From: a virus
Virus record (IMG/VR): IMGVR_UViG_3300031027_000019
Coordinates: 1 to 57,916 of that record
Strand: one strand, 5' to 3'
DNA: 57,916 bases
The translations under genes were made by a program, and so were the position numbers. Positions 1,185-57,502 of the stretch are shown here, one piece after another. The notes under the pieces were generated by a model. It was not told the origin of the DNA. It did not search any database and saw nothing but the letters and a program-made list of their open reading frames with translations. Positions within the stretch are counted from its first letter, which is position 1. Every line of letters begins with the position of its first letter.

Positions 1185-1189
1185 TAGCG

Positions 1190-1199
1190 TGATAAATAA
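1190..1199 (+). promoter_or_regulatory. Putative late promoter (TGATAAATAA) for tail tube gene
   Basis: TGATAAATAA sits 30 nt upstream of the tube start. T4 late promoters are a single TATAAATA-like -10 box read with gp55. The same TAAATA core recurs in front of the capsid, scaffold, portal and several endonuclease genes in this window. The assignment is inferred from recurrence and position. Confidence 0.5.
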
Positions 1200-1229
1200 C
1201 TATAACAGTAAAGATTCAGGAGTTTTACA

Positions 1230-1775
1230 ATGCCGTTTGACATAACCGCTTTTAGGGCAAAATTGGTAGGTGGTGGTGCAAGACCTAATATGTATGAGGT
1301 CATCTTGACCGCACCTCCTTTTGTTGGTTTGGACACAGAACAGTTTGCCTTTATGTGTCAAGCTGCCTCTCAACCAGAATCGACAACTGGTTCATACAAG
1401 CTTTACTACTTTGGTCGTCCTACAAGTCATGGTGGTGATCGTACATTCTCTCCATGGCAGTGTGAAATTATTTGTGATGAGACTTTCGATTTAAGAAATG
1501 CAATGGAAACATGGCAGACTCAAATTGCATCTCATACTACAACAAATGATGCGCAGCGTGGTGGTGGTGCAACTTCTGCTCCTAATTCATATGTTGGAAA
1601 AGCGACTGTTAACCAATATTCAAAGACTGGTCAGATCATAAAGACATACAGTTTCAATGCTTTGTGGCCTACTGCAGTTGGTGGAATTGCACTCGGATGG
1701 AGTCAAAATGACACTATTGAAGTGTTTCCAGTTACGTTTGAATACGATTACTTTACTACAAATTCTGTCCTATAA
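1230..1775 (+). CDS. 19: Tail tube protein (T4 gp19-like)
   Basis: This 181-residue protein would polymerise into the inner tail tube. Length and motifs fit gp19: an N-terminal FRAKLVGGGARPNMYEV segment, a central FGRPTSHGGDRTFSPW block and a C-terminal strand ending in VTFEYDYF. An AGGAG ribosome-binding site precedes the ATG at good distance. It follows the sheath gene, and a strong terminator lies just downstream. Confidence 0.95.
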   Translation: MPFDITAFRAKLVGGGARPNMYEVILTAPPFVGLDTEQFAFMCQAASQPESTTGSYKLYYFGRPTSHGGDRTFSPWQCEIICDETFDLRNAMETWQTQIASHTTTNDAQRGGGATSAPNSYVGKATVNQYSKTGQIIKTYSFNALWPTAVGGIALGWSQNDTIEVFPVTFEYDYFTTNSVL

Positions 1776-1785
1776 AACTTATAAA

Positions 1786-2475
1786 TCAAACCATTGGGAC
1801 AATAGGGGATATGAAAATATCCCCTTTCTTTTTACATTTATCACCATGATGCTTTGTGTAATTTCCAACATCCATTATCGTTCCACAATGTGGGCATTGT
1901 AATTTCTGTCTAACTCGTCCTCTCAGAGAAGCAGCAACCTTATCATTATGCTCCTTAGTATGAGTTCTACCTGTTAAAGAAATTGATTGCTTTCTTCTTT
2001 GTTCTTCTGATGGAACCTTCCCAATTAGAGTTTGCCAGTAAATCTTTGCAGATTTACTATTTTTCATTGATTCAGATCGCAATTTTCTTTCTTCTTTACT
2101 TTTTGGGATTTTATTCTTTGATCTTGAAATTTTCCAATTAGCAATATGATCAGGTGATTTTGGTCCTCTTTTAACTCCCTTCCAATGTTTAAAATTTCCA
2201 CCTTTACCACCTAAACATTTATTATAACACATTGGATCATCCAATATAATTTGTGTTACAAGTTCAGATTCACCTATAAAAGCCGCTTCTTCTGAATCGT
2301 AGAAATTGAGAATTTCTCGTTTAAAATTCTCTCTACCATATTTTCTTATAGCAGCCTGTAAATGTTTATTTGTTCCGAGATATCGGTCTTCAAGAACTTC
2401 TGAAGAGTGTTTTCCAAGGTAAAATTTACAATTAATTAAATTAGTGGTCTTGTATGTGAAGTGATAAATACCCAT
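1786..2475 (-). CDS. GIY-YIG homing endonuclease (Seg-like)
   Basis: A free-standing homing endonuclease of 229 residues. The N-terminus carries GIYHFTYKTTN and FYLGKHSSE, the GIY-YIG catalytic elements, followed by an Arg-containing helix. The middle has NUMOD3-like helical repeats (KSPDHIANWK, EEQRRKQSISLTG, KEHNDKVAASLRG) that bind DNA. The C-terminus holds a Cys/His cluster, CPHCG then HHGDKC, a probable zinc finger. The gene sits antisense between structural genes 19 and 20, a typical T4 Seg location. The start has an AAGGATG ribosome-binding site. It shares the zinc-finger tail layout with the GIY-YIG gene near 27 kb. Confidence 0.92.
   Translation of the reverse strand: MGIYHFTYKTTNLINCKFYLGKHSSEVLEDRYLGTNKHLQAAIRKYGRENFKREILNFYDSEEAAFIGESELVTQIILDDPMCYNKCLGGKGGNFKHWKGVKRGPKSPDHIANWKISRSKNKIPKSKEERKLRSESMKNSKSAKIYWQTLIGKVPSEEQRRKQSISLTGRTHTKEHNDKVAASLRGRVRQKLQCPHCGTIMDVGNYTKHHGDKCKKKGDIFISPIVPMV
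1805..1833 (+). terminator. Rho-independent terminator after tail tube gene
   Basis: A perfect 8-bp stem GGGGATAT/ATATCCCC closes a GAAA tetraloop and is followed by TTTCTTTTT. It terminates the sheath-tube transcript. It lies inside the 3' end of the opposite-strand endonuclease gene, so it doubles as coding sequence there. Confidence 0.9.
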
Positions 2476-2541
2476 GCTGCCAACATCCTTAAAGTGGTTA
2501 AAGTAGAGCTAGTGGGTTTGCCGACCGCGACTAGCATTCTT

Positions 2542-2549
2542 TATTTATA
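2542..2549 (-). promoter_or_regulatory. Exact T4-type late promoter TATAAATA
   Basis: TATAAATA on the minus strand lies about 70 nt upstream of the GIY-YIG start at 2475. A 6-bp inverted repeat (GCTAGT/ACTAGC) lies between promoter and gene. Confidence 0.6.
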
Positions 2550-2557
2550 CCGACAAG

Positions 2558-2565
2558 TTAAATAA
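2558..2565 (+). promoter_or_regulatory. Putative late promoter (TTAAATAA) for portal gene
   Basis: TTAAATAA lies about 30 nt upstream of the portal ATG at 2594, the same spacing as the motif in front of the tube gene. It is weaker than the TGATAAATA form and is assigned by position only. Confidence 0.35.
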
Positions 2566-2593
2566 TACACAGTTTATCATATTGAGGTTATCA

Positions 2594-4297
2594 ATGAGCA
2601 GCCGACTTTTCGGGTTTGTCATCAATAATACAGAGGTAGAGGAACAAATTCGTCGTGCACCTGTTCAACCCAGTGCTGACGATTCTTCTATTGAAGTAGG
2701 CTCTCCTGTTGGTGGAATGGCTCAGCAACAACGTATTATCGGTACTGACAACACCTATCGTTCAGAAAATGCTCTCATCAACAAATATCGTGACTGTGCA
2801 TCTTCACCATTCATTGACAATGCTGTTGATGCGATAACCACCGAAGCTATTGTGAATGATGATGGTTCGAAGAATTCAGTGGAAGTGAAATTCACAGAGG
2901 ATACAGCCCTTCCAGACACTCTCCAGAAACAGATTCAGCAGGAATTTGATTATGTCCTGAAGATGTTTGACTTCAAGCTTTCTGGACATGATATCTTCAG
3001 ACGATGGTATGTTGACGGAAGAATCTATTTCTTTAAGGTCATTGACGAAAAAAATCCCGGTGCCGGTATCAAGGAACTTAGATACATCGATCCTAGAAAA
3101 ATCAAGAAGGTTAGGATGTATGGAAATGATCGAGACAAGCCAGTCGATCAATTTTCGGCAATGAATGTGTCATTTGTGGAATTTTGGTTGTTCTGTGATA
3201 CAGGATTGGATTCTGGTGCACAGTCCTATATGACTTCTATTCCACAAGGTCAGAACATTATCTCGATTGCCAAAGATTCTATTGCCTATTCGACATCTGG
3301 AATGTTTGATCCTTCTGGAAAGATGATCATTTCTCATCTTCACAAAATTTTGAGAACCTTTAATCAGTTCAGAATGCTGGAAGATGCTGTTGTCATCTAC
3401 AGAATGGTTCGTGCGTCTGAGAAGAGAAAGTTCTTGATTGATGTTGGGAATCTTCCAAAGCCAAAAGCTGAGGCTGCAATGCGTGACCTGATGGTCAAGT
3501 TCAAAAACAAGCTTGAATACAATGCCACAACCGGTGAACTGGTTAATGATCGTCGTTATGTAGCAATGACAGAGGATTATTGGTTTGCTGTTCGCGGTGG
3601 TCAACAGGGAACAGATGTCGAGCAATTCCCCGGTGGTGCTTCGCTTGGAGAAGTGGATGATTTAAGACTATTCAAAGAAACTCTATTCCGTGGATTGAAT
3701 GTTCCAATTTCCAGAATTGATCCGGGCGCTGCAACGGTTGACTTCTCTTCCAATGGAAGTCAGATCAGCCGTGATGAACTCTCGTTCAATCGATTTATCA
3801 ATCGATTACGTGCCAGATTCACCCTAATTCTTCAGGATGTGCTTTCTTCTCAGCTTGTCCTGAAAGGTATTGTCACCAAGGAAGAATGGGATGATTTCAA
3901 GGATCAGGTCATCTTTGAGTGGGCTAGAGACTCTTATTATGCAGAACTGAAAGATATTGAAATCATCCAGACCAAGATGCAGGCTGCTGGTTTGGCTCTT
4001 CCTCTTCTTAAAATTCTCGTTTCCAGAGAATATATCTGGCGTGAAATTTTCAAGTTTGATGATCAACAGATCAAGGATATGACAAAGCAACTGGATGATG
4101 ATTTCTCTGTCTTGTCTGAACAGGAAGCACAGGCTGCAATGATGATGCAACCACCACCAGAACCAAATGGAATGGACAATCCTACAGACATGAATGTTCC
4201 TGTTGGAGAAAGTTTCCTCTTTGACAGTATTGAAGACGTTCAACTGAAAGGTGCAATGATCAAACTATTTGAAAGAATGACGCACAAGAAAGGTTAA
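2594..4297 (+). CDS. 20: Portal vertex protein (T4 gp20-like)
   Basis: This protein of 567 residues forms the dodecameric portal through which DNA is packaged. Recognisable features are NKYRDCASSPFIDNAVDAIT near residue 65, YIDPRKIKKVR near 190, the RMLEDAVVIYRMVRASEKRK helix near 285, and the downstream FPGGASLGEVDDL block. The ATG at 2594 is chosen over an in-frame TTG at 2582 because GAGG lies 6 nt before it. It is the first gene of the portal-to-capsid run. Confidence 0.95.
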   Translation: MSSRLFGFVINNTEVEEQIRRAPVQPSADDSSIEVGSPVGGMAQQQRIIGTDNTYRSENALINKYRDCASSPFIDNAVDAITTEAIVNDDGSKNSVEVKFTEDTALPDTLQKQIQQEFDYVLKMFDFKLSGHDIFRRWYVDGRIYFFKVIDEKNPGAGIKELRYIDPRKIKKVRMYGNDRDKPVDQFSAMNVSFVEFWLFCDTGLDSGAQSYMTSIPQGQNIISIAKDSIAYSTSGMFDPSGKMIISHLHKILRTFNQFRMLEDAVVIYRMVRASEKRKFLIDVGNLPKPKAEAAMRDLMVKFKNKLEYNATTGELVNDRRYVAMTEDYWFAVRGGQQGTDVEQFPGGASLGEVDDLRLFKETLFRGLNVPISRIDPGAATVDFSSNGSQISRDELSFNRFINRLRARFTLILQDVLSSQLVLKGIVTKEEWDDFKDQVIFEWARDSYYAELKDIEIIQTKMQAAGLALPLLKILVSREYIWREIFKFDDQQIKDMTKQLDDDFSVLSEQEAQAAMMMQPPPEPNGMDNPTDMNVPVGESFLFDSIEDVQLKGAMIKLFERMTHKKG

Positions 4298-4304
4298 ATT
4301 TTAA

Positions 4305-5015
4305 GTGAAAGACCTTAGCAAAATTGCTGAGATTGTTTCTTTCGTAGCGGTATTTGCTAAAAGTGAAATTGAAAAGAGCATTGTAGAAGTTCAAGCCAAT
4401 CTCTACAAGAAACTGAAAGAAGATTTACAGTCAGTCACTCAGCAAATCAACGAAGAGTCAATAGAAGCCGAACGAATGTTCAAGGATAATGTTGCTCTGA
4501 AGAGCGATGTGTCTGAAGCACAGGATTCGGCTGTCTATATTGCTAAAGGTCAAATTGATCAATCTACAAAAAGATTGACTCGTATCATAGAAGATACCAA
4601 CACATTTTTAACCAATAGTATTTCATCATTATCTAACAGACAGATCATTGCTGAACGAGCATTGACCGACGCACTTCAACAGACAGGGTTGAATTTTTCC
4701 GATAGACTTGCAGTGCTTTTGGAAGATGTGAACGCATTATCTGAAAAACATAGTGAAACACTGAAGGAAGTTGTTATTGATTCAAATAATGCCCTTGATG
4801 TGATTCATGTGGCCGTTTTGGATGAATCAATTTCTAGAATTGCTCAACTTGGTTTTGAATTTGAAGAATCTATGTCTAATCTTACTTATAAAATTAACGA
4901 AACCATTGACACTTCTATGAAAATTAAGACATTTACAGGTGAGATTGGAGATACAGCTTATAGTGTAGATGAAATTGTGTCTGTTTTAAAATTAAATGGA
5001 TTATTGAAAGTTTGA
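4305..5015 (+). CDS. Coiled-coil protein between portal and core genes
   Basis: A 236-residue, acidic, almost entirely helical protein starting at a GTG 7 nt after the portal stop, with AAGG upstream at somewhat long spacing. Heptad-like helices run through most of its length (YKKLKEDLQSVTQQINEE, ISRIAQLGFEFEESMSNL). I do not recognise the family. In T4 the corresponding interval holds small prohead core genes 67 and 68, so a prohead core or assembly role is possible but only positional. Confidence 0.7.
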   Translation: MKDLSKIAEIVSFVAVFAKSEIEKSIVEVQANLYKKLKEDLQSVTQQINEESIEAERMFKDNVALKSDVSEAQDSAVYIAKGQIDQSTKRLTRIIEDTNTFLTNSISSLSNRQIIAERALTDALQQTGLNFSDRLAVLLEDVNALSEKHSETLKEVVIDSNNALDVIHVAVLDESISRIAQLGFEFEESMSNLTYKINETIDTSMKIKTFTGEIGDTAYSVDEIVSVLKLNGLLKV

Positions 5016-5022
5016 TTATTAG

Positions 5023-5142
5023 CTTGCAATCGTAATCAACGAAACTGGTGTTTCCAAGATCAATTTGTCTATATTCGGAGATGTTTCCGTCCCTACACAT
5101 GTCTTCATGTCACTCGAATGGCTCATCAATGGGGATGCATAA
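5023..5142 (+). pseudogene. Possible start-less gene remnant
   Basis: A 39-codon open frame without a usable start codon reads as a protein-like sequence ending in VFMSLEWLINGDA before TAA. It lies between the coiled-coil gene and the core gene, in another frame than the preceding gene. It could be a decayed C-terminus or chance. The rest of the 5016-5191 gap shows only the ribosome-binding region of the next gene. Confidence 0.25.
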
Positions 5143-5191
5143 AAGATTTCCTTAAATATCCTATAGTTCAATCGAATTTGGGAAATATCTG

Positions 5192-6019
5192 ATGGCAAAT
5201 CTATTAAAAGTTCGTGAGTATGTTACATCTGTTCTGAATAGAGAGGGCGCTAAGACCCTCAATGAACATGTTGCTGACTATTCATTGTCTGCTCTTTCTG
5301 AGAGTGTTGATTCTATTGTCGAAGGTAGAAAGGACTATACCGCTCATGCAGTCGATACATGGATGAAGCGTAAAGAATCCGGCTATCAGAAGAGAAAGAA
5401 TGCCGAGAAGGATAAGAAGAAAATTGATGAAGCTAAGTCTGGTAATATTTTTGACAAACACCTTCTTAAAATTGCAAAAGACACACTGAAAATGTCTGAT
5501 GTTGGTGCAAGAATTATGGGTGGTATGACTAAAGAAGAAGCTAGAAAGCATATTCATCGTATTACTGGAAAGTATCCAAAAGAAACAAACGAATCCATCA
5601 ATGAAGGCGAAGTCAAGACTGTCTATAACAAACTTCTAGGTGGTTGGTATAACGTTCGTGGAAAGCATCAGACACCACTAGGTGGTCGATTCGATTCAAA
5701 GGAAGCAGCTGTCAAACATTTGAATCGCAATAAGAAGCCTGCGAATGAATCTGTTGTGAATGAAGAATTTGAAGGACACATTCATGCTCTTCATAAATTC
5801 TTGGATATGACAGGTGGACAAACAATCCATACAGATAAATTTCCATCTTTAGGAAATAAAAAATATGCAATGGCTCGTCACCACGCAAGAATGGCAATAT
5901 CGAATTTTAAAAGTTCTGAAGGAGCATCACCAGAATATAAAGAAAATTATCTAAAAAATGCAAATAAACACCTAGCAAAGGTTGAATACCATATCAATCG
6001 CATTCACGGAAAGAGATAG
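5192..6019 (+). CDS. Prohead core / internal head protein with repeated protease-like sites
   Basis: A 275-residue basic, helical protein encoded between portal and prohead protease. Four candidate prohead-protease sites with small/aliphatic-x-Glu ends are visible: KTLNE (near residue 25), SINE (near 136), and VVNE (near 190), plus EEFE. T4 gp21 cleaves after (L/I/A)xE. This suggests that it is packaged as a core protein and processed, like T4 gp67/gp68 or internal proteins. Its C-terminal His-rich helices (ARHHARMAISNFKSS) resemble the small proteins encoded at 55-57 kb. Function is inferred from position and sites. Confidence 0.7.
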   Translation: MANLLKVREYVTSVLNREGAKTLNEHVADYSLSALSESVDSIVEGRKDYTAHAVDTWMKRKESGYQKRKNAEKDKKKIDEAKSGNIFDKHLLKIAKDTLKMSDVGARIMGGMTKEEARKHIHRITGKYPKETNESINEGEVKTVYNKLLGGWYNVRGKHQTPLGGRFDSKEAAVKHLNRNKKPANESVVNEEFEGHIHALHKFLDMTGGQTIHTDKFPSLGNKKYAMARHHARMAISNFKSSEGASPEYKENYLKNANKHLAKVEYHINRIHGKR

Positions 6020-6023
6020 CTTA

Positions 6024-6689
6024 ATGTCCAAGAATCAACCTCAACTAATCTCAGAAGAGTTTTACCTCACACCAATCTGTGAAGCTATCAACGGTCAAAA
6101 GCAGTGGTATTTGAAGGGCATCTATGCTCAAGCAGATGTCATCAACAAGAACGGTAGAATCTATTCAGAAGCAGTTCTAGACAATGCTATCAATGGTTTC
6201 ATCAACGAGTACATGAACAATAATCGTGGTGTTGGTGAGCTTAATCATCCACCTAGAATTGCTGTTGATCCAGATAGAATTTGCCATCGTGTCCTTTCAT
6301 TGGAAAAGAGTGGAAAGAACTGGAATGGAAATTCTGTCGTTCTGAACACCACCTGTGGAAAGAATGTCCAAGCTCTTCTGGAAGGAAACATCAGAATTGG
6401 TGTCTCTACTCGTGGATTTGGAACCATGGAAGATAATTCTGCTGGTGTCAAAGTCGTTCAGGATGATTTTAAGATTGTCGCTATAGATGCGGTTTTTCAT
6501 CCGTCAAATGCTCCATTAGTCACTGCAATTTTGGAAGGTCAAGACCTTTCATTGATCACAGAAGATGTTGAGAGTGTCAATTTTATCCAGAGCATCAGAG
6601 AAGATGTTTTGAAGGCAAATGCAAAGATGGTCAACGAACAACAGTTGGCAGCATTCGAAAAGTTCATCAAATATATTTCAAGAACTTAA
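6024..6689 (+). CDS. 21: Prohead maturation protease (T4 gp21-like)
   Basis: A serine protease of 221 residues that processes core and capsid proteins during head maturation. The herpes-assemblin/S78-type elements are visible: YAQADVINKNGRIY near residue 35, the histidine motif GVGELNHPP near 75, and the serine motif RIGVSTRGFG near 130, then AIDAVFHPSNAP. The ATG at 6024, 4 nt after the preceding stop and behind GGAAAGAG, is preferred to an in-frame ATG at 5982 inside the previous gene. Confidence 0.93.
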   Translation: MSKNQPQLISEEFYLTPICEAINGQKQWYLKGIYAQADVINKNGRIYSEAVLDNAINGFINEYMNNNRGVGELNHPPRIAVDPDRICHRVLSLEKSGKNWNGNSVVLNTTCGKNVQALLEGNIRIGVSTRGFGTMEDNSAGVKVVQDDFKIVAIDAVFHPSNAPLVTAILEGQDLSLITEDVESVNFIQSIREDVLKANAKMVNEQQLAAFEKFIKYISRT

Positions 6690-6695
6690 ACTTCA

Positions 6696-6703
6696 CTAAA
6701 TAC
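6696..6703 (+). promoter_or_regulatory. Putative late promoter (CTAAATAC) for scaffold gene
   Basis: CTAAATAC lies in the only gap between protease and scaffold genes, about 44 nt before the scaffold start, and shares the TAAATA core with other putative late promoters here. Confidence 0.4.
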
Positions 6704-6746
6704 TTCATTATACACGTAATAAAAATTCAGTAGGGAGCATTTTAAC

Positions 6747-8060
6747 ATGGCATCAAAATTGGAACAGACCATCAGAAATCTACTCAAGGAAGATGAGGGT
6801 ACAGCCATTGCTGAACCAGCTGCTAACTTGATTGAGAATCCAGAAGACGACAATGAAGAATTTGCCGAGAATCCAGAAGTTACCGATCCAATCGAATCAC
6901 CAGTTCTCGAAGATGCACAGCTTGTCAATCAACACAGACAGGCAGCAGATTTGATCAGCAAGTATCACAAGAATGATCCAGAAGCTGCAGCTGTTGTTTC
7001 TGCTCACCAGAATGCACTAAATGCTTTCGATACCAAAAATCCTTCTGCTCATATGCTTTCCAAGAGAGCTTTCAGAATGAATGCTCAATTCGACCGTATG
7101 GACCCACTTCATGAAGATGATGGAATGGAAGATGTCGAACTCGATCCAGATATTTCTGAATTGGGTAATGGAAATATCGATACCTACAAAGATCAATCTT
7201 CACTCGGTGTAACCCAAGTTTCAGAACCAGAGATGCCAACAATGCCTACAGCCGAGATGGGAACCTACATGCGCGAATCAATCAGCAAAATGACATTTGA
7301 GGATGTCAAGGTTGATCGTTCAGAATTTGGTAAGTTGTTTGAAGGTCAGGGTCTGACTGAGGAAACCATCACAAAGGCTGTCGATCTTTTCGAATCGGCT
7401 TGTAATTCTAAAATTGCTACTGTGCTTTCTGGTGTCATCAAGACGATTGCAGAATCTGCAGAGACAATGTTCCAGTCCAAGATCAATGAAGAAGTTGCAA
7501 ACATCAGGGCTATTGCAGAAGAAACTTCTGCTCAGTGGTTGACAGAGAATCAGATTGCTATTGAATCTGCTACTCGTTCCAACATTACAGATTCCTTCAT
7601 CTCAGGTCTTCGTACTCTCTTTGTAGAACACTACATCGAAATTCCAAAGTCCAAGGTCAATCTCCTAGAAGCATTCCAGTCCAGAATTGAAAAGCTTGAG
7701 GAAAGTGTTTCAATTGAAATGGGTAAGACCCTAGAAGCCAAGAAGCTTTTGACTGAGAGTCAGAAGACTCTTTCTCTGGTTGGATATACCAAGGGATTGA
7801 CAACACTCCAAGCTGAAAAGGTTACACAGATTGCTGAAGGTATCGAGTTCACAACAGCAGAAGAATTTGTTGCCAAAGTGAAGACGATTGCTGAAGGCGC
7901 AGTGGCTGCAACAGTTTCAACTACTGCTAAGACAGCTGCTCCAATTTTGGAAACAGTCGGTGCGACAGTCGTTGATCCTACAACACAGGTTGTGAATGAA
8001 GAGGCAATTGATCCAATGGTTGCAAGATACATCCAACACGCAAAGAACGAAGCACTCTAA
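6747..8060 (+). CDS. 22: Prohead core scaffolding protein (T4 gp22-like)
   Basis: An acidic 437-residue scaffold around which the capsid assembles and which is then degraded. The gp22-like signature is SAQWLTENQIAIESATRSN followed by FISGLRTLFVEHYIEIPKSK and a long coiled coil. An N-terminal insertion of about 150 acidic residues makes it longer than T4 gp22 (269). NLLKE near residue 15 is a likely protease site. GGGAG precedes the ATG. It sits between protease and capsid genes as in T4. Confidence 0.92.
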   Translation: MASKLEQTIRNLLKEDEGTAIAEPAANLIENPEDDNEEFAENPEVTDPIESPVLEDAQLVNQHRQAADLISKYHKNDPEAAAVVSAHQNALNAFDTKNPSAHMLSKRAFRMNAQFDRMDPLHEDDGMEDVELDPDISELGNGNIDTYKDQSSLGVTQVSEPEMPTMPTAEMGTYMRESISKMTFEDVKVDRSEFGKLFEGQGLTEETITKAVDLFESACNSKIATVLSGVIKTIAESAETMFQSKINEEVANIRAIAEETSAQWLTENQIAIESATRSNITDSFISGLRTLFVEHYIEIPKSKVNLLEAFQSRIEKLEESVSIEMGKTLEAKKLLTESQKTLSLVGYTKGLTTLQAEKVTQIAEGIEFTTAEEFVAKVKTIAEGAVAATVSTTAKTAAPILETVGATVVDPTTQVVNEEAIDPMVARYIQHAKNEAL

Positions 8061-8103
8061 GCGCAGTCGGTTGATTCAAAAGAATTTCTGCACAATAAAG
8101 TTT

Positions 8104-8112
8104 CATAAATAA
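8104..8112 (+). promoter_or_regulatory. Putative late promoter (CATAAATAA) for capsid gene
   Basis: CATAAATAA lies about 38 nt upstream of the capsid start, in the 90-nt gap after the scaffold gene. CAGAGGAAGA then supplies a strong ribosome-binding site. Confidence 0.5.
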
Positions 8113-8150
8113 AATCATAGTAACAACTAAACAACAGAGGAAGACAACAC

Positions 8151-9551
8151 ATGAAGGTCAATAAGCAAATTCTCGCAAAGTGGAAGCCAATTCTTGAGAA
8201 TGAATTTTATCCAAAGATTCGTGACAACTACCGTAAGCAGGTTACTGCTACATTGCTTGAGAACCAAGAAGTTTCTATCCTCAAGGGCGAAGCTATTGAT
8301 CGCAACATCCCTCGTGAGTTGATTCTCGAAAATGAAGTTCCTTCCAACGTTTCTGCAAACTTGGGCGGACCTCTCGCTAACAACACAACCAACGTTTCAG
8401 GTTATGACCCAGTTTTGATTAACTTGGTTCGTCGTAATATGCCTAACTTGATCGCTTATGATATTTGTGGTGTTCAGCCAATGACCATGCCTACCGGCTT
8501 GATCTTTGCTCTACGTACCAAGTATATCTCAAGCCCACCAGCTTCTGCTCCAGCAGGGTTGTTATCTCTTCCAGAAACCAACTATAACGAAGTTAACTCT
8601 GCATTCTCTGGTACTGGATCACAGACTGGTAATTCTCCAGCTGCGTTGAATAACGGTGGAACATACACCTACGGTACTGCACAGCCAACCCTAACCGGTG
8701 AAATGTTGGGTACTCCGGGTAATCCTTTCCCAGAAATGGGTATCACCATCGAAAAGGTTACAGTCTCTGCTCAGACTCGTGCTTTGAAGGCTGAATACAC
8801 CTCTGAAATTGCACAGGATTTGAAGTCTGTGCATGGATTGGACGCAGAAACAGAACTTGCAAACATCTTGCAGGCTGAAACACTCGCTGAAATCAACCGT
8901 GAAGTTGTTCGTACCGTTTATGTTATTGCAAAGCCCGGTTGTCAGAACACCGATTTGACCACTCCCGGTACTTTCGACTTGAACCTAGACTCTAACGGTC
9001 GTTGGGCTGTTGAAAAGTTCAAGGGTATGTTGTTCCAGATCGAGCGTGAGGCTAACCAAGTTGCTCGTGACACCAGACGCGGTCGTGGTAACATCATCAT
9101 CTGTTCATCTGACGTTGCTTCCGCATTGGCAATGGCAGGCGTTCTGAACTATGCTCCTGCCCTTTCAACAGGTTTGGACGTAGATGATACTGGTAACACC
9201 TTCGCTGGTATCCTACAGGGTCGTTACAAGGTCTACATCGATCCATATGCAGTCGCTTCTACACCTACAGCTGAAGCACACGCTGGATTCAACTTCTTCG
9301 TTGTTGGATTCCGTGGATCAAGTGCTTATGACGCAGGTTTGTTCTACTGCCCATATGTTCCACTCCAGATGTTCAAGACTTTGGACAGCGAGACCCTACA
9401 GCCTAAGATCGCCTTCAAAACGCGTTACGGCATGGTCGCAAACCCATTCGCACAGGGTACGACAGTTGGACTTGGTGCGTTGACAGCTTCTGCGAACGTG
9501 TACTACAGACGTTCTAGAGTTATCAATTTGACCGGTACAGCAGTAAGCTAA
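8151..9551 (+). CDS. 23: Major capsid protein (T4 gp23-like)
   Basis: The 466-residue HK97-fold shell protein. T4 gp23 motifs appear in order: AKWKPILE at the N-terminus, NLIAYDICGVQPM near residue 100, LKAEYTSEIAQDLKSVHGLD near 215, NREVVRTVY, FAGILQGRYKVYIDPYA near 350, and FKTRYGMVANPFA near 420. The first 60 or so residues correspond to the gp23 propeptide; ELILE near residue 63 is a plausible cleavage end. Codon choice (AAC, GGT, CGT) is more biased than in neighbours, as expected for a highly expressed gene. Confidence 0.97.
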   Translation: MKVNKQILAKWKPILENEFYPKIRDNYRKQVTATLLENQEVSILKGEAIDRNIPRELILENEVPSNVSANLGGPLANNTTNVSGYDPVLINLVRRNMPNLIAYDICGVQPMTMPTGLIFALRTKYISSPPASAPAGLLSLPETNYNEVNSAFSGTGSQTGNSPAALNNGGTYTYGTAQPTLTGEMLGTPGNPFPEMGITIEKVTVSAQTRALKAEYTSEIAQDLKSVHGLDAETELANILQAETLAEINREVVRTVYVIAKPGCQNTDLTTPGTFDLNLDSNGRWAVEKFKGMLFQIEREANQVARDTRRGRGNIIICSSDVASALAMAGVLNYAPALSTGLDVDDTGNTFAGILQGRYKVYIDPYAVASTPTAEAHAGFNFFVVGFRGSSAYDAGLFYCPYVPLQMFKTLDSETLQPKIAFKTRYGMVANPFAQGTTVGLGALTASANVYYRRSRVINLTGTAVS

Positions 9552-15233: not shown

Positions 15234-15883
15234 CGATACTTCCACTTTAAGTTTAAACCATAGGCACTACCAAACACTTCTCTGTAATAGTAAGGTAGTT
15301 TGGAATAGTCACCATCAAGATTTTCTGGCATTGCTTTAACAATCCTTTCCATATTATAAGGCTCTGATAGCGTTTCATCATACCAGCGCCTTGTTTCCAT
15401 TAGGACATTGTAGAAGTGGATATAGGCAGAAGCACGCTGTGCATAGTATTCGGGATTGATTGGGAGTTTCCACCCTTTAATCTTTCCAATCGCTCGACGC
15501 TCACAGTCTAGCTCACAATCCCTACACAAACCAATAATATTCTCCCTTTGTTTCCTAGACAGAGTAATTTCACCATTCAACCAAAGTTCCATGACAGAAT
15601 TTGAGTCAGAGGAAGACATGATCGTATTGGTCCATTCTGGACACTGTTCCATCCATTGATCAAAATGACAAGATTCGTGAACAAAAATTGGAAACCATTT
15701 TTCAAATGGCTGATCGACAGCAACAGCAAGTTCTGGTTTCGGAGAATCAGAAAAATACCCATTACAACCATCAACCAGTCTGGTTTTGGAAAAATTCAAT
15801 TTCACTTTGTTCTTCTTCAGTTCCTTTTCGATATGATTGATGAAGGGAAGAACAGAAGATGGAATTGCGTTAGTCGGCTTCAT
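15230..15883 (-). CDS. Putative zinc metallopeptidase (HExxH)
   Basis: A 217-residue protein with FVHESCHFDQW near residue 68, an HExxH zinc site, followed by a helical region with CRDCELDCERRA near residue 120 that could supply the third ligand. Substrate is unknown. It is the last gene of the ThyX operon. Confidence 0.7.
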   Translation of the reverse strand: MKPTNAIPSSVLPFINHIEKELKKNKVKLNFSKTRLVDGCNGYFSDSPKPELAVAVDQPFEKWFPIFVHESCHFDQWMEQCPEWTNTIMSSSDSNSVMELWLNGEITLSRKQRENIIGLCRDCELDCERRAIGKIKGWKLPINPEYYAQRASAYIHFYNVLMETRRWYDETLSEPYNMERIVKAMPENLDGDYSKLPYYYREVFGSAYGLNLKWKYR

Positions 15884-16005
15884 TTTGTTGATTCTATGAT
15901 TGCAAGAGCAGCTATTGCTGCCCCAGAATGATCACCTTTCAATAAACATCTGACAAACAAAACAATAGATGCACCCTGAAAGAAAAATTTTAGAAAATCA
16001 TTCAT
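15880..16005 (-). CDS. Small membrane protein, 41 aa
   Basis: It has one hydrophobic helix (GASIVLFVRCLL) and an Ala-rich tail. The ATG at 16005 overlaps the thyX stop by 8 nt and has AGGA upstream. Its stop overlaps the metallopeptidase start. A longer reading in the same frame would lie inside thyX and is not favoured. Confidence 0.55.
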   Translation of the reverse strand: MNDFLKFFFQGASIVLFVRCLLKGDHSGAAIAALAIIESTK

Positions 16006-17002
16006 TGCTATAGAGAGTCCTGAAAGGCTCATACTTGTTACAGACGTTATTTTTGACAGTCTGACGGAATTGGAACCAGTTTCTGAAATTTCCAGACCAC
16101 CAGTCGTTCTCATCAGTTGTAAATTTTCCAGCTTGCATATTGGCTTTTTCTGTTGCTCTGTCGAATGGACGTGCTTGGTGTTCTGTTGGAGAAGCATGGA
16201 CCGGAACAGATTTCACCAGTCGTTCGTAGATCGATTCAGCCTTTTCTAGAGATGGATCATTCTTTCTATATGATACTTGAGCAGCACAAGAAACAGAAGT
16301 TTTCAGGGCTTCACCTAATGAGATACCAGCATCATTCATCAATGAATCGAGTTCACCAGCGATCCAGAACCCATCATCAAAATATGGCATGTGCCAATCT
16401 TTACTCGTGAGGACAGTTGGTTCAGAAAGCTTTGCAGCTTCCAACATACAACGTGCAAGTTCTTTAAATTCTGGTTGAGCGTCTGGATGGTATCTGAGAT
16501 GGAAGAAATTATCCCATTCGGTTCCAGTCAACACACTCTTCATCATACAAAATGGTTCGATGAGCCTGTTTGTAATGGACTTGTGATATCCGGCCTGTTG
16601 GAAACCAATAGCCATCTTGATAGCAAGGTCTCGTGCATAAGTCCAAGCTTGTTCTCTGGTCATTCGATAACCAACACCATCATGAGTAAACCTTACTGGC
16701 TCATCAGTCTCTTCTTTGGCACTCATTCCAGCCTGATTCTTTCCCCAGAAAATAGGCATCGCTGTCTGATTCTTGATATTTTCAATCATTTTTTCAACAG
16801 GAACGGCTCTGGATGATGCTGAGTTTTTACTTTCCATTCGGTGTGTGTTGACTTCAGCAAGAATCCACCTGTGATACTCACATTCAAATGTGATGATTCT
16901 GGAAGGATTGTCGCTATACAAATCGTGCTTGCTGATTGAGTCTGCAACAACTCTAGCTATAATTCCACCTTTTCCTTCTACTACTGATCTATATTCTGTC
17001 AT
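15998..17002 (-). CDS. thyX: Flavin-dependent thymidylate synthase ThyX
   Basis: A 334-residue FAD/NADPH-dependent enzyme that methylates dUMP to dTMP. The ThyX signature is seen as NTHRMESKNSASSRAVP near residue 53, followed by FQQAGYHKSITNRLIEPF near 140, and SCAAQVSYR near 240. It is longer than the usual 220-260 residues because of an insertion of about 50 residues after the signature and a longer C-terminus. It overlaps the upstream gene by 4 nt. It provides dTMP for phage DNA alongside dCMP deaminase and dNMP kinase. Confidence 0.92.
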   Translation of the reverse strand: MTEYRSVVEGKGGIIARVVADSISKHDLYSDNPSRIITFECEYHRWILAEVNTHRMESKNSASSRAVPVEKMIENIKNQTAMPIFWGKNQAGMSAKEETDEPVRFTHDGVGYRMTREQAWTYARDLAIKMAIGFQQAGYHKSITNRLIEPFCMMKSVLTGTEWDNFFHLRYHPDAQPEFKELARCMLEAAKLSEPTVLTSKDWHMPYFDDGFWIAGELDSLMNDAGISLGEALKTSVSCAAQVSYRKNDPSLEKAESIYERLVKSVPVHASPTEHQARPFDRATEKANMQAGKFTTDENDWWSGNFRNWFQFRQTVKNNVCNKYEPFRTLYSNE

Positions 17003-52655: not shown

Positions 52656-53873
52656 TTAGTTAATTTTATTGTTTTCATCCTTCTCCTTCTTCATCGCAAG
52701 ATACTTCCCATATGCTTCACTCTTTGGCTGAGTTAAACCTAAACCTTTACACCACCAATCATTTCTTAATAGAACTTTACACATCCGACGCCATGATGGT
52801 GCCCATTGTTTATCCTCTAAAACTTTTGGTGCCTCGTCTGGAATACCATCGACATAACCACGCCCTTTCCACCCTTTTATAAATCCCCTAAATCGTTCAA
52901 TATAGTGCTCTTGAGTTTTCTTTGGCATCGAAGAAAGAAGAAGGTTGCAGAATGATTTCCATGTATGCCCATCTGGTTTATAAATTTTATTATAACCAGT
53001 AATATTTCCATTTTCATTGATATAAAGAGCACCAGAATTTACTCCATTGACTCTGGCAATCAGCTTAAACCACGTCTGAGGTTCCAGTAGATGATAGAGC
53101 CATAATCCGCGTCTCTGATCATCACCATAAGGTTGACAAAGTCTTTGTTGAGATATTGGAACACCAGCTTTATGCATCAGGTCATAGATTGGATTATGAA
53201 TCTTTTCTGGAAACTTTGCATGAAATCTCCAAATATCTTCTGTCTTCCAATCATAGATCGGGTACACATTGTAAAGTTCATCATCAATGTGTGTTGTGAA
53301 TCTCTTATTTCCATGCATTCTCTTATCACTTAATGCAATGGTTCTGAATCGATTTAATGACTCATCGGCGCGAATGCCAACAAACCCACCACAAGATTTT
53401 CCATCTGCATACCAAAGCCCCCACATGACCATAAATTCTTCAAATTCCAATCCATCTTGAAAAAATGGATAATAGTTGATATCAGAAATTCCAAGTTTAG
53501 GAAGGTCACGAACCCAAATTTCCTTGTTTTCTGAATCCCAACACTTCCATCTTGGTGTATAGTTTGATACTGCATTTCGTAGAAGCATCGGAAGGCACAC
53601 CCAATGAAGTTCAATATGGTCTTTGTATGTTTCTACCATTTCTTCTATATGTTTTATGGTAGCTGAATATTGTGCTTCCAAATCAATAATCAAAAGCGCA
53701 ACTTTTCTACCGCGCCTGATAGCTTCTGCCATAACCAAGTGAGTCATGACAGAAGAATCTTTTCCGCCAGAAAACGATATATAAAGTTTTTCAAAATTAT
53801 CAAATGCATACTTAACTCTGCTAACAGCAGCTTCATATACATTAACATCTTGATTGTATTGTTTGATTCCCAT
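52656..53873 (-). CDS. ibrA: PAPS reductase-like sulfurtransferase (IbrA / DUF3440-like)
   Basis: A 405-residue PP-loop protein. LYISFSGGKDSSVMTHLVM near residue 31 is the ATP pyrophosphatase loop; EDIWRFHAKF and the AGVPISQQRLCQPYGDDQR segment near 250 fit the IbrA/YbdN family. In Escherichia coli the homologous pair IbrA-IbrB (YbdN-YbdM) alters surface gene expression. The substrate is unknown; sulfur transfer to DNA or RNA is conceivable. Followed upstream by a helper gene and an IbrB-like gene. Confidence 0.85.
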   Translation of the reverse strand: MGIKQYNQDVNVYEAAVSRVKYAFDNFEKLYISFSGGKDSSVMTHLVMAEAIRRGRKVALLIIDLEAQYSATIKHIEEMVETYKDHIELHWVCLPMLLRNAVSNYTPRWKCWDSENKEIWVRDLPKLGISDINYYPFFQDGLEFEEFMVMWGLWYADGKSCGGFVGIRADESLNRFRTIALSDKRMHGNKRFTTHIDDELYNVYPIYDWKTEDIWRFHAKFPEKIHNPIYDLMHKAGVPISQQRLCQPYGDDQRRGLWLYHLLEPQTWFKLIARVNGVNSGALYINENGNITGYNKIYKPDGHTWKSFCNLLLSSMPKKTQEHYIERFRGFIKGWKGRGYVDGIPDEAPKVLEDKQWAPSWRRMCKVLLRNDWWCKGLGLTQPKSEAYGKYLAMKKEKDENNKIN

Positions 53874-53874
53874 A

Positions 53875-54300
53875 TCAATATAAATTTGCCTGAGTTTTTG
53901 ACTTCGAATCTTCTAGTGATTTTGGTTCTTCACCGCGTCGTGTTAGCCATATATTAAGATACTTCAATGCCGTTTTATTTGCTTGTTCTTGTTCAGTTTC
54001 TGTAAGTAAATTGAATCCACCTCTGTAATCTGATGGTATCCCCTTAGCATAGCATAAAGAAGCCTGTCCTAGCCATGCTATTCGATTCATGTTTTCATTG
54101 GACAAGTAATGTTCGCATGAATTTTTCCAAGTATCAATGACACCTTGGAGTGCTGCCTCAAATTCTTCTGTATTGGTTAAAAGATTTTTATAGATTGATT
54201 CACAATCTTCATCTGTCAATGACTTATCTTTTGGTCTGGATTCGTAAAATCCTGCTGGATAACATTCCCACTTTTCCCATGTATGAAATATTCGTTTCAT
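53875..54300 (-). CDS. Helper protein between ibrA- and ibrB-like genes, 141 aa
   Basis: NRIAWLGQASLCYAKGIPSD then RGGFNLLTETEQEQANKTAL is a recognisable motif of small proteins found near such loci. The ATG at 54300 follows the ibrB-like stop directly. Role unknown; context suggests it works with the pair. Confidence 0.72.
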   Translation of the reverse strand: MKRIFHTWEKWECYPAGFYESRPKDKSLTDEDCESIYKNLLTNTEEFEAALQGVIDTWKNSCEHYLSNENMNRIAWLGQASLCYAKGIPSDYRGGFNLLTETEQEQANKTALKYLNIWLTRRGEEPKSLEDSKSKTQANLY

Positions 54301-54302
54301 TA

Positions 54303-54965
54303 TCAATCACTCAATGGCGTAAAGTTTTCTTCCATGTTTTCAATATCCCATGACTGAGAAAAATCTTGGTCTTGGAATAGTTCAGAAAGTCCAGTGATCT
54401 GACAGAGTCTAAGAACTTCTTCAGCATCCATCCCAAGATTTTTGCAAATTTTCTCATCAGACCAATTTCTACGCTTCAATTCAATCACAATATCAGACAT
54501 AGCTTCAACTTGATGCTTTCCTCTTGCTCGATTATGGCGAATAGTTGATGCCATTCTATTGGTAAGATCAGCCTGACTTTGTTTGATTTTGACAATCGGT
54601 ACATGTCCATGAACCCTAGAACGAACATCCTCGCATTCTTTGTTCACTCTGGTTCTATGAAATCCATCCACAACTTCATATTTGTCATTTTCTGGATTTG
54701 TTACGACAGGCTGGGTATAACCATCAGCCATGATTGAAACTCTCAAGAGTTCCATTTCTGGTGGTGCTACGGAATTAGGATTATAATCATTCGCATGCAC
54801 CAAATCAGAATGAACCCAAAGAACACAATCAATTGGTTCATTTTTTAATGGACTGTACTGGTGAACAAGCAATCTCAAATCATTTATTGCGTTAATCCGT
54901 TCCCCTACAGATTTATTTTCAATAGAAACAAGATATTCTTCCACAACATTATGTATATTATTCAT
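54303..54965 (-). CDS. ibrB: ParB-like nuclease-domain protein (IbrB-like)
   Basis: A 220-residue protein with a ParB/Srx fold: VLWVHSDLVHANDYNPNSV near residue 48, ADGYTQPVV near 80, YEVVDGFHRTRV near 96 (GxxR region) and the helix RHNRARGKHQVEAMSDIV near 142. IbrB/YbdM partners IbrA. It may bind DNA or nucleotides. Confidence 0.85.
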   Translation of the reverse strand: MNNIHNVVEEYLVSIENKSVGERINAINDLRLLVHQYSPLKNEPIDCVLWVHSDLVHANDYNPNSVAPPEMELLRVSIMADGYTQPVVTNPENDKYEVVDGFHRTRVNKECEDVRSRVHGHVPIVKIKQSQADLTNRMASTIRHNRARGKHQVEAMSDIVIELKRRNWSDEKICKNLGMDAEEVLRLCQITGLSELFQDQDFSQSWDIENMEENFTPLSD

Positions 54966-54997: not shown

Positions 54998-55333
54998 TCA
55001 AGCTTTAAATCCTTGAAATGATGTCTTCCCAATCAATGATTTGTGCCATGCCTGACGAGCATGATGTTGGTCGGCTAGACGTTTGTTGCCAACTTCATCG
55101 TGCATATGAGATTTTGTATGATACATTCTCATGTGATAATGGTGCTTTGCCAATTCTTCATGTTGAAGATCATGGTGTGTCTGTTTTTCATGTGGCATTG
55201 TAGTTTCATCATGAAGCATTCTATAAGATCGAGCATTTTTAAAATGATCCAAGGCTTTTTCCAGATGCTTCATATGTTCTGGAAGTGGATCATAGGCTTC
55301 ATTTTCATTTAAAAATTGACGTAAAGTTTTCAT
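54998..55333 (-). CDS. Small His-rich internal head protein candidate, 111 aa
   Basis: Begins MKTLRQFLNE, a capsid-targeting sequence like that of T4 internal proteins (MKTYQEFIAE), with LNE as likely cleavage end. The rest is helical and very rich in His (HHDLQHEELAKHHYHMRMYH). Overlaps the GP88 gene by 4 nt. Probably packaged in the head and possibly injected. Confidence 0.75.
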   Translation of the reverse strand: MKTLRQFLNENEAYDPLPEHMKHLEKALDHFKNARSYRMLHDETTMPHEKQTHHDLQHEELAKHHYHMRMYHTKSHMHDEVGNKRLADQHHARQAWHKSLIGKTSFQGFKA

Positions 55334-56622
55334 CTTGATCCAGTTCCATGTTGAGCAACAAAGTCATGTAGCTTGATAGGTTTGTGAACACCTACAGAAG
55401 GCGCTATAGAAGCAGCTGTGTGGTTCATAGCCGCTGGATGTGGCTCACTCTTAGGTGAGGCACCTTTACGAGCAATAGCGACGTGTCCACCAGCTTCTGG
55501 ACGAACTGCAAAGTTTCCTGCACGCTCTAGATTTGGTCCACCACCCTTCAATCGAAGACCAGCAATGACGCCCTCATGATGAGGAACTTCATTATAAGCC
55601 TTATCTAGATGTCTGTGATCATGTGGATCACCGTCAATGACTCTATATTTCTTTCCAGTCTCTTCATCATGAACATGACTTGGGAGTGCTGAATCGGCTG
55701 CGCCTCTTCGTCCCTGTTTGACAGCAAAGACCATGGATGCAACACCACCTTTATCCAGATGCTGTCTAACCTGATGCCAGTTGGACGTAGGGTGGTTTAA
55801 TCCAGTAGAAGAAACAGTCAGATGATAATTTGAAGGGAGACTTTTGTTTTTGGTTCGACCAGACAATTTTGTATAATCATAGAACTGAACGTCATGGTGC
55901 TTCTTGAAAAGTTCTGGTGCAAGATGTTCATGTGGAATATCAGAAGCAACATTCAATCTGACAGCAAGTTTCTTTCCTTCCTTGTGAGCCGCAGTTTTTG
56001 CACCAGTGATTTCCTTATCTAGTCCAGCATAGAAGTGGGCAGGATGATTCATGGCAAAATGAGTTTTTGCAATACGAGCATTTCTGGTTCCAGACATGAC
56101 AGCACGACCAGCCGATTTTCCGAGACAAGAAGCTTTACATTCTGGTGTTGCAGCAGGACAAGTATCAATTCCAGACATGGTAGATGGTGCTAGAGAAACA
56201 CCGAGTGTCTTATAGATTGGAATTTTCTTGGCATATTTTCCAAATTTTGGATTGGACTTTTCATTACCCATAAACTTACCAGACTTAGCGAGTTTAGGAT
56301 TGGATGCTTCTGGACCTGTGATTTTGGCACGCATCTTTCCAGCTTCTTTCTGCATGTGTCCCTGAAGTTCTGTAGAGGATGAAAAATACTTCTGGGCACC
56401 AGCACGCATTTCCCTCCAGTTTGGATTGGTATGAGCTTCAGTCTGTGCAACGTCTTCATTCATCATAGCGAATCTATCACCAAAATTCATTTCTTCAAAT
56501 ATAACTTCATCGTCCTCAAGGATCAAATCTTCTTCTGAAATATGTGAGAAATCTTCCAGAAGAAAATAGGTCTCTTCTAGAGGTTCGTGCTGTTCATTGA
56601 GAAATTGTCCGATTGTCTTCAT
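55330..56622 (-). CDS. GP88-domain protein with capsid-targeting N-terminus, 430 aa
   Basis: The N-terminus MKTIGQFLNE is a capsid-targeting sequence with an LNE cleavage end. After an acidic linker of about 80 residues comes a GP88-like domain: IPIYKTLGVSLAPSTMSG, the Cys cluster CPAATPECKASCLGKSAGR near residue 155, ARIAKTHFAM and AVRLNVASDIPHE. GP88 proteins are known from phages with no proven activity; the Cys motif suggests a metal or Fe-S site. Packaging in the head is inferred from the N-terminus. Confidence 0.82.
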   Translation of the reverse strand: MKTIGQFLNEQHEPLEETYFLLEDFSHISEEDLILEDDEVIFEEMNFGDRFAMMNEDVAQTEAHTNPNWREMRAGAQKYFSSSTELQGHMQKEAGKMRAKITGPEASNPKLAKSGKFMGNEKSNPKFGKYAKKIPIYKTLGVSLAPSTMSGIDTCPAATPECKASCLGKSAGRAVMSGTRNARIAKTHFAMNHPAHFYAGLDKEITGAKTAAHKEGKKLAVRLNVASDIPHEHLAPELFKKHHDVQFYDYTKLSGRTKNKSLPSNYHLTVSSTGLNHPTSNWHQVRQHLDKGGVASMVFAVKQGRRGAADSALPSHVHDEETGKKYRVIDGDPHDHRHLDKAYNEVPHHEGVIAGLRLKGGGPNLERAGNFAVRPEAGGHVAIARKGASPKSEPHPAAMNHTAASIAPSVGVHKPIKLHDFVAQHGTGSR

Positions 56623-56955
56623 TTAAAATTGTCCAGTATGTATAGCAGTAGAGTGTCCCAACGCAGAATCCAGATACTTTCGACTGATGGTTCTGGATTC
56701 CAAACCTTGATGGAGTGGTGAATGCTTCATATGTAGATACATATGAGCATAATGTTCTCGCATATTTCGGTGATATGCTTCTGGATTTCCAGCATTCTTG
56801 GCTTGGGCTGCAGCAGAATGAAATTTCACAGCATGATAGAGATGATCAATTGCAGTATCATTGTCAATCTTTGGTGATGATCTATCACGAGGATGAAGCT
56901 GAGCTAACTCAACATCCTCTGTGATAGATTGGAGAAATTGGGAAAGTGTTTTCAT
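56623..56955 (-). CDS. Small His-rich internal head protein candidate, 110 aa
   Basis: MKTLSQFLQSITE start (targeting sequence with ITE end). The C-terminal part AIDHLYHAVKFHSAAAQAKN and AYHRNMREHYAHMYLHM aligns with the next gene, so the two are paralogues. Ends 1 nt before the GP88 start. Confidence 0.75.
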   Translation of the reverse strand: MKTLSQFLQSITEDVELAQLHPRDRSSPKIDNDTAIDHLYHAVKFHSAAAQAKNAGNPEAYHRNMREHYAHMYLHMKHSPLHQGLESRTISRKYLDSALGHSTAIHTGQF

Positions 56956-56960
56956 GTTTA

Positions 56961-57467
56961 TTATGCTGTCCCAATTTTATCTGAATGATCGACTGCAGCA
57001 TCCAAATGAGCCATCTTTTCTTCATAGTTACGACGCCCACTCAAAACTTCATTATTATCCAAATGGTGGTACATATTAGTATGAAAATCTCTCATACCAC
57101 GATGATAATTTTTAGTGTCATTTTCCGATTTTGCTTTCACTGCTGCTCTATGAGAGTCAACGGCTTGATATAAACGGCGTATAGCATGATCGTGGATGAG
57201 TTCTCTATTTTTATCATGAGACTCACTTTCACCCAATCTTCCAAACTGGTTTCGAGCAGAATCAACATCTCTTTCCAGACGCTTTTCGTAGTCATTCACT
57301 TCATTACTTTTGACACCCGGAAGACGACCAACACCATTGAATTTATTATAGCGAGTGAATCTCCCTTTAGAAGGCTTATTTCTGAACGGAGAAGCACCTT
57401 CTGCAGCTGGTGATAGTGTTCCGTTATCCTCTGAGATTGTCTGTACAAATTGCTCTAAAGTCTTCAT
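56961..57467 (-). CDS. Small internal head protein candidate, 168 aa
   Basis: MKTLEQFVQTISE start (targeting sequence with ISE end). The C-terminal part AIRRLYQAVDSHRAAVKAKS and YHRGMRDFHTNMYHHLD is paralogous to the previous gene. The ATG at 57467 with AGGA upstream is preferred to a TTG at 57503. A late-type promoter lies 26 nt upstream. Confidence 0.75.
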   Translation of the reverse strand: MKTLEQFVQTISEDNGTLSPAAEGASPFRNKPSKGRFTRYNKFNGVGRLPGVKSNEVNDYEKRLERDVDSARNQFGRLGESESHDKNRELIHDHAIRRLYQAVDSHRAAVKAKSENDTKNYHRGMRDFHTNMYHHLDNNEVLSGRRNYEEKMAHLDAAVDHSDKIGTA

Positions 57468-57492: not shown

Positions 57493-57502
57493 GTATTTAT
57501 CA
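57493..57502 (-). promoter_or_regulatory. Putative late promoter (TGATAAATAC) for internal protein cluster
   Basis: Matches the tube-gene motif at nine of ten positions; it would make the four capsid-targeted genes a late operon, which fits a virion role. Confidence 0.55.

Follow-up and report, generated by a model that had tools for sequence, protein, structure and literature searches.

Four neighbouring genes of a metagenomic virus probably encode T4-type internal head proteins that carry a capsid targeting sequence

Proteins that phages inject into their hosts are hard to predict, because they have no common folds. A locus near one end of the 57.9-kb metagenomic virus record IMGVR_UViG_3300031027_000019 (the whole stretch of 57,916 nucleotides that was analysed, hereafter the window) raises the question of whether the first residues of such proteins may betray them: do four neighbouring genes, whose products begin almost alike, encode proteins that are loaded into the phage head, trimmed there and passed on to the next host?

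The four genes occupy positions 54998-57467 of the minus strand and encode, in the direction of transcription, T168 (168 aa, 56961..57467), T110 (110 aa, 56623..56955), the GP88-domain protein T430 (430 aa, 55330..56622) and T111 (111 aa, 54998..55333). As they are separated by only 5, 0 and -4 nt, we regard them as one operon. An earlier note had pointed to the common start MKT(L/I)xQF(L/V), closed by (L/I)xE 10-13 residues in, and both statements held for 4 of 4 ORFs, with LNE twice at residue 10, and ITE and ISE at residue 13. The predicted capsid targeting sequences (tags, assigned by their pattern) are MKTLEQFVQTISE followed by D in T168 (57429..57467), MKTLSQFLQSITE followed by D in T110 (56917..56955), MKTIGQFLNE followed by Q in T430 (56593..56622) and MKTLRQFLNE followed by N in T111 (55304..55333), all on the minus strand. 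In the 10-residue tags of T111 and T430, positions 4, 7, 8 and 10 are L/I, F, L/V and E, respectively; the longer tags of T168 and T110 keep positions 4, 7 and 8 and have the closing E at position 13. At the DNA level, the pattern ATGAARACNHTNNNNCARTTYBTN matched the window four times, each time at one of the tagged starts, against an expectation of 0.00 in dinucleotide shuffles of the window. The predicted mature proteins have pI values of 8.3-9.1 and masses of 11.0, 12.2 and 17.7 kDa, and 46 kDa for the GP88 protein; mature T168 would comprise 155 aa with a pI of 9.1. No DNA-level relatives of the operon were found among sequenced phages, and a near-identical metagenomic contig, IMGVR_UViG_3300030618_000020, continues the region 8.7 kb past the window end.

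Several neighbours of the operon were recorded in passing. A PAPS-reductase/DUF3440 protein and a ParB-like protein are encoded immediately 3' of it (52656-54965, minus strand). Past the window end, a 466-aa phrog_850 RNA-binding protein (L002:5198-6598) lies about 2.6 kb 5' of the operon, and a 330-aa protein two genes 5' of it (L002:7566-8558), for which there was no family match, starts with MLVTKEFVTTVLSRFLTE followed by SATE and is possibly another processed head protein.

The earlier note had also assigned a late-type promoter to the cluster. An ATAAATA element (57494..57500, minus strand, in the context ATTGATAAATACAAA) precedes the first ATG of the operon by 33 nt, where the sequence reads GATAAATA, and the same element precedes the tail tube gene by 38 nt and gp23 by 46 nt. 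Because ATAAATA is not clearly more frequent in the window than expected (15 occurrences versus 12.3 by chance), the promoter assignment rests on position. The mechanically called ORF of T168 opens at a TTG 12 codons 5' of the ATG, and it is the ATG that we consider the likely start, as the element sits 33 nt before it.

The pattern is that of the T4 internal proteins, in which the tag directs proteins into the head core and the protease gp21 cleaves after L/I-x-E, releasing propeptides 10-19 residues long (PMC9026906). Ten residues of T4 IPIII are enough for packaging, also of a foreign protein, residues 4 and 7 controlling targeting, and 8 and 10 processing (PMC9026906). In T4 Ip1, Ip2 and Ip3 the leader is the sole common part, and each of the three proteins blocks another type IV restriction enzyme (PMC12373910).

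If the window phage follows the same scheme, it should have the corresponding head genes, and tail sheath, tail tube, portal, gp21, gp22 and gp23 were indeed found in T4 order at 96-9551. The gp21-like protease that had been noted near 6 kb was confirmed: the gene at 5982..6689 (plus strand; an alternative ATG at 6024 is possible) matches Peptidase_S77 (PF03420) with E 2e-30 and a head maturation protease profile with E 2e-47. Its product is 34% identical to T4 gp21 in the alignment of the two and retains GELNHP and GVS(T/S)RG, which we take to be the motifs surrounding the catalytic His and Ser of the S77 family. Profile matches likewise identified a gp22-type scaffold gene rich in (L/I)xE (6747..8060, plus strand) and the gp23 major capsid protein gene (8151..9551, plus strand), whose product is 55-57% identical to the capsid proteins of cyanophage, Methylophilales phage Melnitz and Stenotrophomonas DLP6. 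In the gp23 alignment, ELILE60|NEV of the window protein stands opposite the T4 maturation site FLTE65|AEI. Because ILE|N of the window gp23 aligns with the T4 cut site, the window protease plausibly cleaves after (L/I)xE. The interval between portal and gp21 holds a gene for a 275-aa protein (5192..6019, plus strand) with (L/I)xE at residues 25, 37 and 44, for which no family match was found; it is positioned as T4 genes 67 and 68 and is a possible core protein equivalent to gp67/gp68. Between the tail tube gene and the portal gene, a homing endonuclease (phrog_314; 1786-2475, minus strand) is encoded on the other strand.

A common start could also be what is left of gene duplication, the 5' ends having been copied with no targeting role. 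T168 and T110 are in fact genuine paralogues over the last ~80 residues of T168 (phmmer E 5e-12), whereas T111 and the GP88 protein resemble the other operon proteins in the tag only, no similarity having been detected outside it. Four GP88 proteins from other viral contigs, with 52-56% identity to T430 over the best segment, start with MFRLNQYIVE, MLSFREFMVE, MLRFKEHLIE and MLNFKQFFQD: the tag pattern is kept while its letters have changed, which argues against plain copying, and the last of them has D at position 10. In T4, D at this position still permits targeting. An S77 protease was present in 3 of the 10 records with close GP88 relatives, these three coming from two tagged lineages and the others being fragments.

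T430 matches PF17338 with E 4.6e-33 and 115.4 bits (gathering cut-off 24.4) as well as phrog_1617. All six (L/I)xE sites of T430 fall within residues 1-43 and none occurs later, so that this region looks like a propeptide that would be cut more than once. The GP88 proteins of P22-type phages, encoded in the P22-type portal/coat gene interval, start with MATVTS and lack the tag; in two such relatives no (L/I)xE site precedes residue 190. GP88 is also the C-terminal domain of two large polyvalent phage proteins that have an ADP-ribosyltransferase (ART-PolyVal) domain (L018:5588-10930 and L019:950-3976), a class that has been proposed to be injected (PMC5512222). The fusion to ART-PolyVal and the position in the P22-type head module are compatible with a GP88 protein that is carried in the head and may act on the host. 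A relation of the GP88 domain to radical-SAM or other TIM-barrel enzymes was considered, but the model is of too low a quality to claim a fold. Cys 155, 162 and 166 are invariant in GP88, with a spacing unlike canonical CX3CX2C, and the best matches of the low-confidence T430 model (pLDDT 59) all had Z below 5, TIM-barrel enzymes among them, leaving no clear match for the fold: a viperin-like protein gave Z 4.7 (rmsd 4.8, 163 residues aligned) and proline dehydrogenase Z 4.6 (rmsd 5.1, 204 residues aligned). A search for sequence relatives of GP88 in the PDB returned none. Of the four operon products, the GP88 protein, with its invariant three-cysteine cluster, is the one most likely to be enzyme-like.

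The collection of viral contigs was scanned at the DNA level for MKT(L/F)xQF(L/F)xE, two reorderings of the same codons serving as controls. The tag pattern occurred in at least 120 contig stretches, compared with 9 and 2 for the scrambled patterns. Among the matches listed, 118 of 122 opened a frame of 50 codons or more, and most matches of the first scrambled pattern opened tiny frames. With the tag removed, the 118 proteins grouped into 55 families, of which 36 had a single member, and Pfam searches with the family representatives returned adenylate kinase, SAM lyase, lysozyme, glucosaminidase, ADP-ribosyltransferase, methyltransferase, acetyltransferase and cytidylyltransferase domains (again among the matches listed). 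The occurrence of one tag on 55 unrelated families among these matches, together with the dissimilarity of T111 and the GP88 protein and the behaviour of the GP88 relatives, strongly disfavours plain duplication as the source of the common start, and we regard that explanation as very improbable.

Residue 11, which lies outside the pattern, was Ala in 23 of the 55 representatives (42%, p 4e-13 against a background of 6.9%), and with Ser included the count rose to 31, both among the matches listed. In T4, gp22 is cleaved by gp21 at a Glu-Ala bond (PMC9026906), and the gp23 site FLTE|AEI likewise shows gp21 cleavage before Ala. Since the preference at residue 11 coincides with that of T4 gp21, the view that the tag ends are gp21 sites gains independent support. 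The preferred Ala follows none of the predicted cuts in the window proteins, where the next residues are D, D, Q and N. Tagged cargo held 50 (L/I)xE sites versus 59.9 in shuffles (z -1.5), whereas other ORFs of the same loci had an excess (z +4.6); that cargo avoids such sites is only suggestive. Co-occurrence with an S77 protease was tried as a test of the tag and discarded as uninformative (11 of 37 tagged contigs versus 7 of 30 neutral ones, all 30 kb or longer), in part because the contigs are fragments and the neutral 15-mer had chanced on several large S77 phages; S77 match scores of 119-142 bits in tagged records (one of 55) versus 81-93 in neutral ones were noticed post hoc. Two side observations belong to these contigs. 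A HAD-phosphatase-like motif, FD(I/V)D(D/E)TLF, stands directly behind the tag in three proteins (G002 15771-16358, G010 63567-64175 and L072:3493-4119; tags MKRFRDFLKE, MKRFKEFISE and MKTFAQFLAE), some but not all of them from relatives of the window phage. In the viral contig behind L071 (G067), gp23 profiles match two separated partial pieces, at 32289 and 111140, which may reflect an intron, a rearrangement or two partial genes.

When named phages were scanned with at most one mismatch, T4 returned two MKTYQEFIAE starts, at 65.7 and 66.4 kb, presumably the ipII/ipIII area, and gene 61.1. Genes of P-SSM2, Aeh1 and Rhizobium phage RHph_I1_18 were also matched; the same strict pattern had no match in SPO1, phiKZ, Felix O1, N4 and P1, nor in the T4-like phages KVP40, S-PM2, Syn9, HTVC008M and Melnitz. 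Gene 61.1 (NC_000866 18966-19130), which adjoins primase gene 61, encodes 54 aa with the tag-like start MKTFKEFIKE|DMVAG. A tagged family of 53-58 aa with VTNVGAGRAVPINPGSG recurs in viral contigs (L024, L044, L047, L087, L095 and L120).

Published virion proteomes allow the tag to be compared with what particles actually contain. For S-CREM2 (PMC10665884, Table 3), the annotated genes were scored with M[KRQ]x[FLIYMVW]xx[FYHLW][LIVMF]xE. Five genes were tagged, namely a SAM hydrolase (MKDFDSFLEE), a kinase ((V)KRFDAFLTE), a cytidylyltransferase (MKNFSSFLTE), ORF13 (MKDLHSFLTE) and ORF136 (MQTFSMFFSE), and 5 of 5 were detected in the virion, compared with no tagged gene among the 167 undetected ones; the Fisher p of 6e-4 is optimistic, because the pattern was fixed after the virion N-termini were known. 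With a looser pattern that had been drawn up earlier, three annotated genes were picked out by their start, and all three (3/3) are virion proteins. The S-CREM2 paper itself says nothing of a targeting sequence (PMC10665884). In P-SSM2, the tagged PSSM2_194 is a member of cluster T4-GC190, whose S-SM1 member starts with MKKFSAFLNE and was among the proteins that mass spectrometry detected in virions of S-SM1 (PMC3037559). In the part of S-SCSM1 that was covered, the NMNAT, a virion protein (PMC9602691), starts with the tag MKSFLQFLKE, and a tagged 107-aa gene (MKTFKQFMSE) is not flagged as part of the virion. A virion-detected Cas9-like protein of S-CREM2, ORF12 (OR473000 7704-10313), has a tag-like LRFASFMAE|A at residues 17-25, and its annotated start may be wrong. 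All three proteomes are of whole particles, with head and tail not separated, and the tag might accordingly address another late structure or partner, such as the tail or a chaperone, capsid entry being incidental. We give this reading little credence, since the same tag targets the head core in T4 (PMC9026906) and closes with a gp21 site whose next-residue Ala preference is that of gp21.

Whether the cargo serves the host-facing side of infection or the head itself is a separate matter. The small proteins T168, T110 and T111 are basic and His-rich, T111 having the highest His content (15%) among window ORFs of at least 100 aa. T110 is predicted to form a three-helix bundle after a flexible leader (pLDDT 78), and its model has no significant PDB match. 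Among the small operon proteins there was no match to a known effector or to an enzyme; a weak PADLOC hit of T111 ('Effector/Endonuclease', E 2e-4) and a GrpE hit of T168 under the cut-off (E 1e-3) were dismissed as compositional. The tagged proteins could enter the head as parts of the core or scaffold, like gp67, gp68 and partly IPIII, and not as host effectors. Their small size and basic character, the lack of an enzyme match and the predicted helices of T110 fit such a role, as do the head assembly defects of T4 IPIII mutants (PMC9026906). On the other side, neither gp22 nor the candidate core protein of 275 aa showed detectable similarity to T168, T110 or T111, the conserved domain of GP88 is fused to ADP-ribosyltransferase domains elsewhere, and many tagged proteins elsewhere are accessory enzymes. 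For the operon as a whole we therefore hold the head-core role to be possible, if rather unlikely, and T168, T110 and T111 could be head-core proteins instead.

We prefer to read the four products as T4-type internal head proteins, targeted by their tags, cut by gp21 and injected (probability roughly 0.8). The operon would be expressed late; the first 10-13 residues would bind the prohead core as a capsid targeting sequence; the gp21-type protease would cleave after (L/I)xE, in the GP88 protein probably more than once within residues 1-43, and so free the mature proteins inside the head; these would then be injected together with the DNA when the next host is infected and act early, in countering host defence or in takeover. 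The steps are not equally secure for the window phage. We are confident that the proteins are packaged through the tag, cleavage by gp21 is highly probable, and injection is likely. That at least one of the four acts on host defence or metabolism is somewhat better than an even bet. The earlier note's proposal of capsid targeting and gp21 processing is supported by the anatomy of the tag, the phage's own gp21/gp22/gp23 set, the pattern kept in the four GP88 relatives and the tagged proteins in the virion proteomes of related phages. Its 'likely effector set' is something that we, too, can only infer, the circumstantial support extending only to the GP88 protein.

The three published proteomes suggest that the tag is general across T4-superfamily phages. 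It is reasonably probable that environmental members of this group generally use the T4 capsid targeting sequence as a modular address, with the window operon as one cargo island, and, to the same degree, that many unrelated enzymes are loaded into heads by it, among them SAM lyases, kinases, ADP-ribosyltransferases, methyltransferases, cytidylyltransferases and GP88 proteins. If so, the injected proteome of uncultivated phages would be predictable from the tag alone, and metagenomic sequence would list candidate injected proteins for anti-defence or takeover; this would make concrete, testable candidates of the GP88 family and of the operon's small His-rich proteins.

Among known systems, the Dar proteins of P1 offer a functional parallel, an N-terminal signal loading injected anti-defence proteins into the head (PMC9024508; PMC5512222), although P1 Dar proteins have no consensus in common and no sequence relation to the window proteins was found. 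Within the GP88 family (PF17338, phrog_1617), residues 124-348 of T430 score well above the curated cut-off, but T430 has a tag and an N-terminal region of ~43 residues with multiple sites, and the aligned P22-type relatives have neither. The virion proteins of S-CREM2, S-SM1 and S-SCSM1 (SAM hydrolase, APH-like kinase and cytidylyltransferase/NMNAT) bear the same N-terminal tag, and ORFs 12-15 of S-CREM2 adjoin one another as the genes of the window operon do, whereas their cargo domains are unlike those of the operon. The T4 internal proteins share with the window proteins the MKT start, a hydrophobic residue 4, Phe 7, I/L/V at 8 and a Glu that ends (L/I)xE, a cut site within 10-19 residues, a late-type promoter (in the window a candidate one), gp21 in the same phage, and a basic character with mutual dissimilarity past the tag. 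The window cargo differs from them in having no IP family match and D, D, Q and N after the cuts. The window phage belongs to a non-T-even lineage with cyanophage/Melnitz-like capsid genes, and it has four genes in a single operon, one of which encodes a 46-kDa GP88-domain protein as cargo. The mechanism is thus already known from T4; the lineage and the cargo are new.
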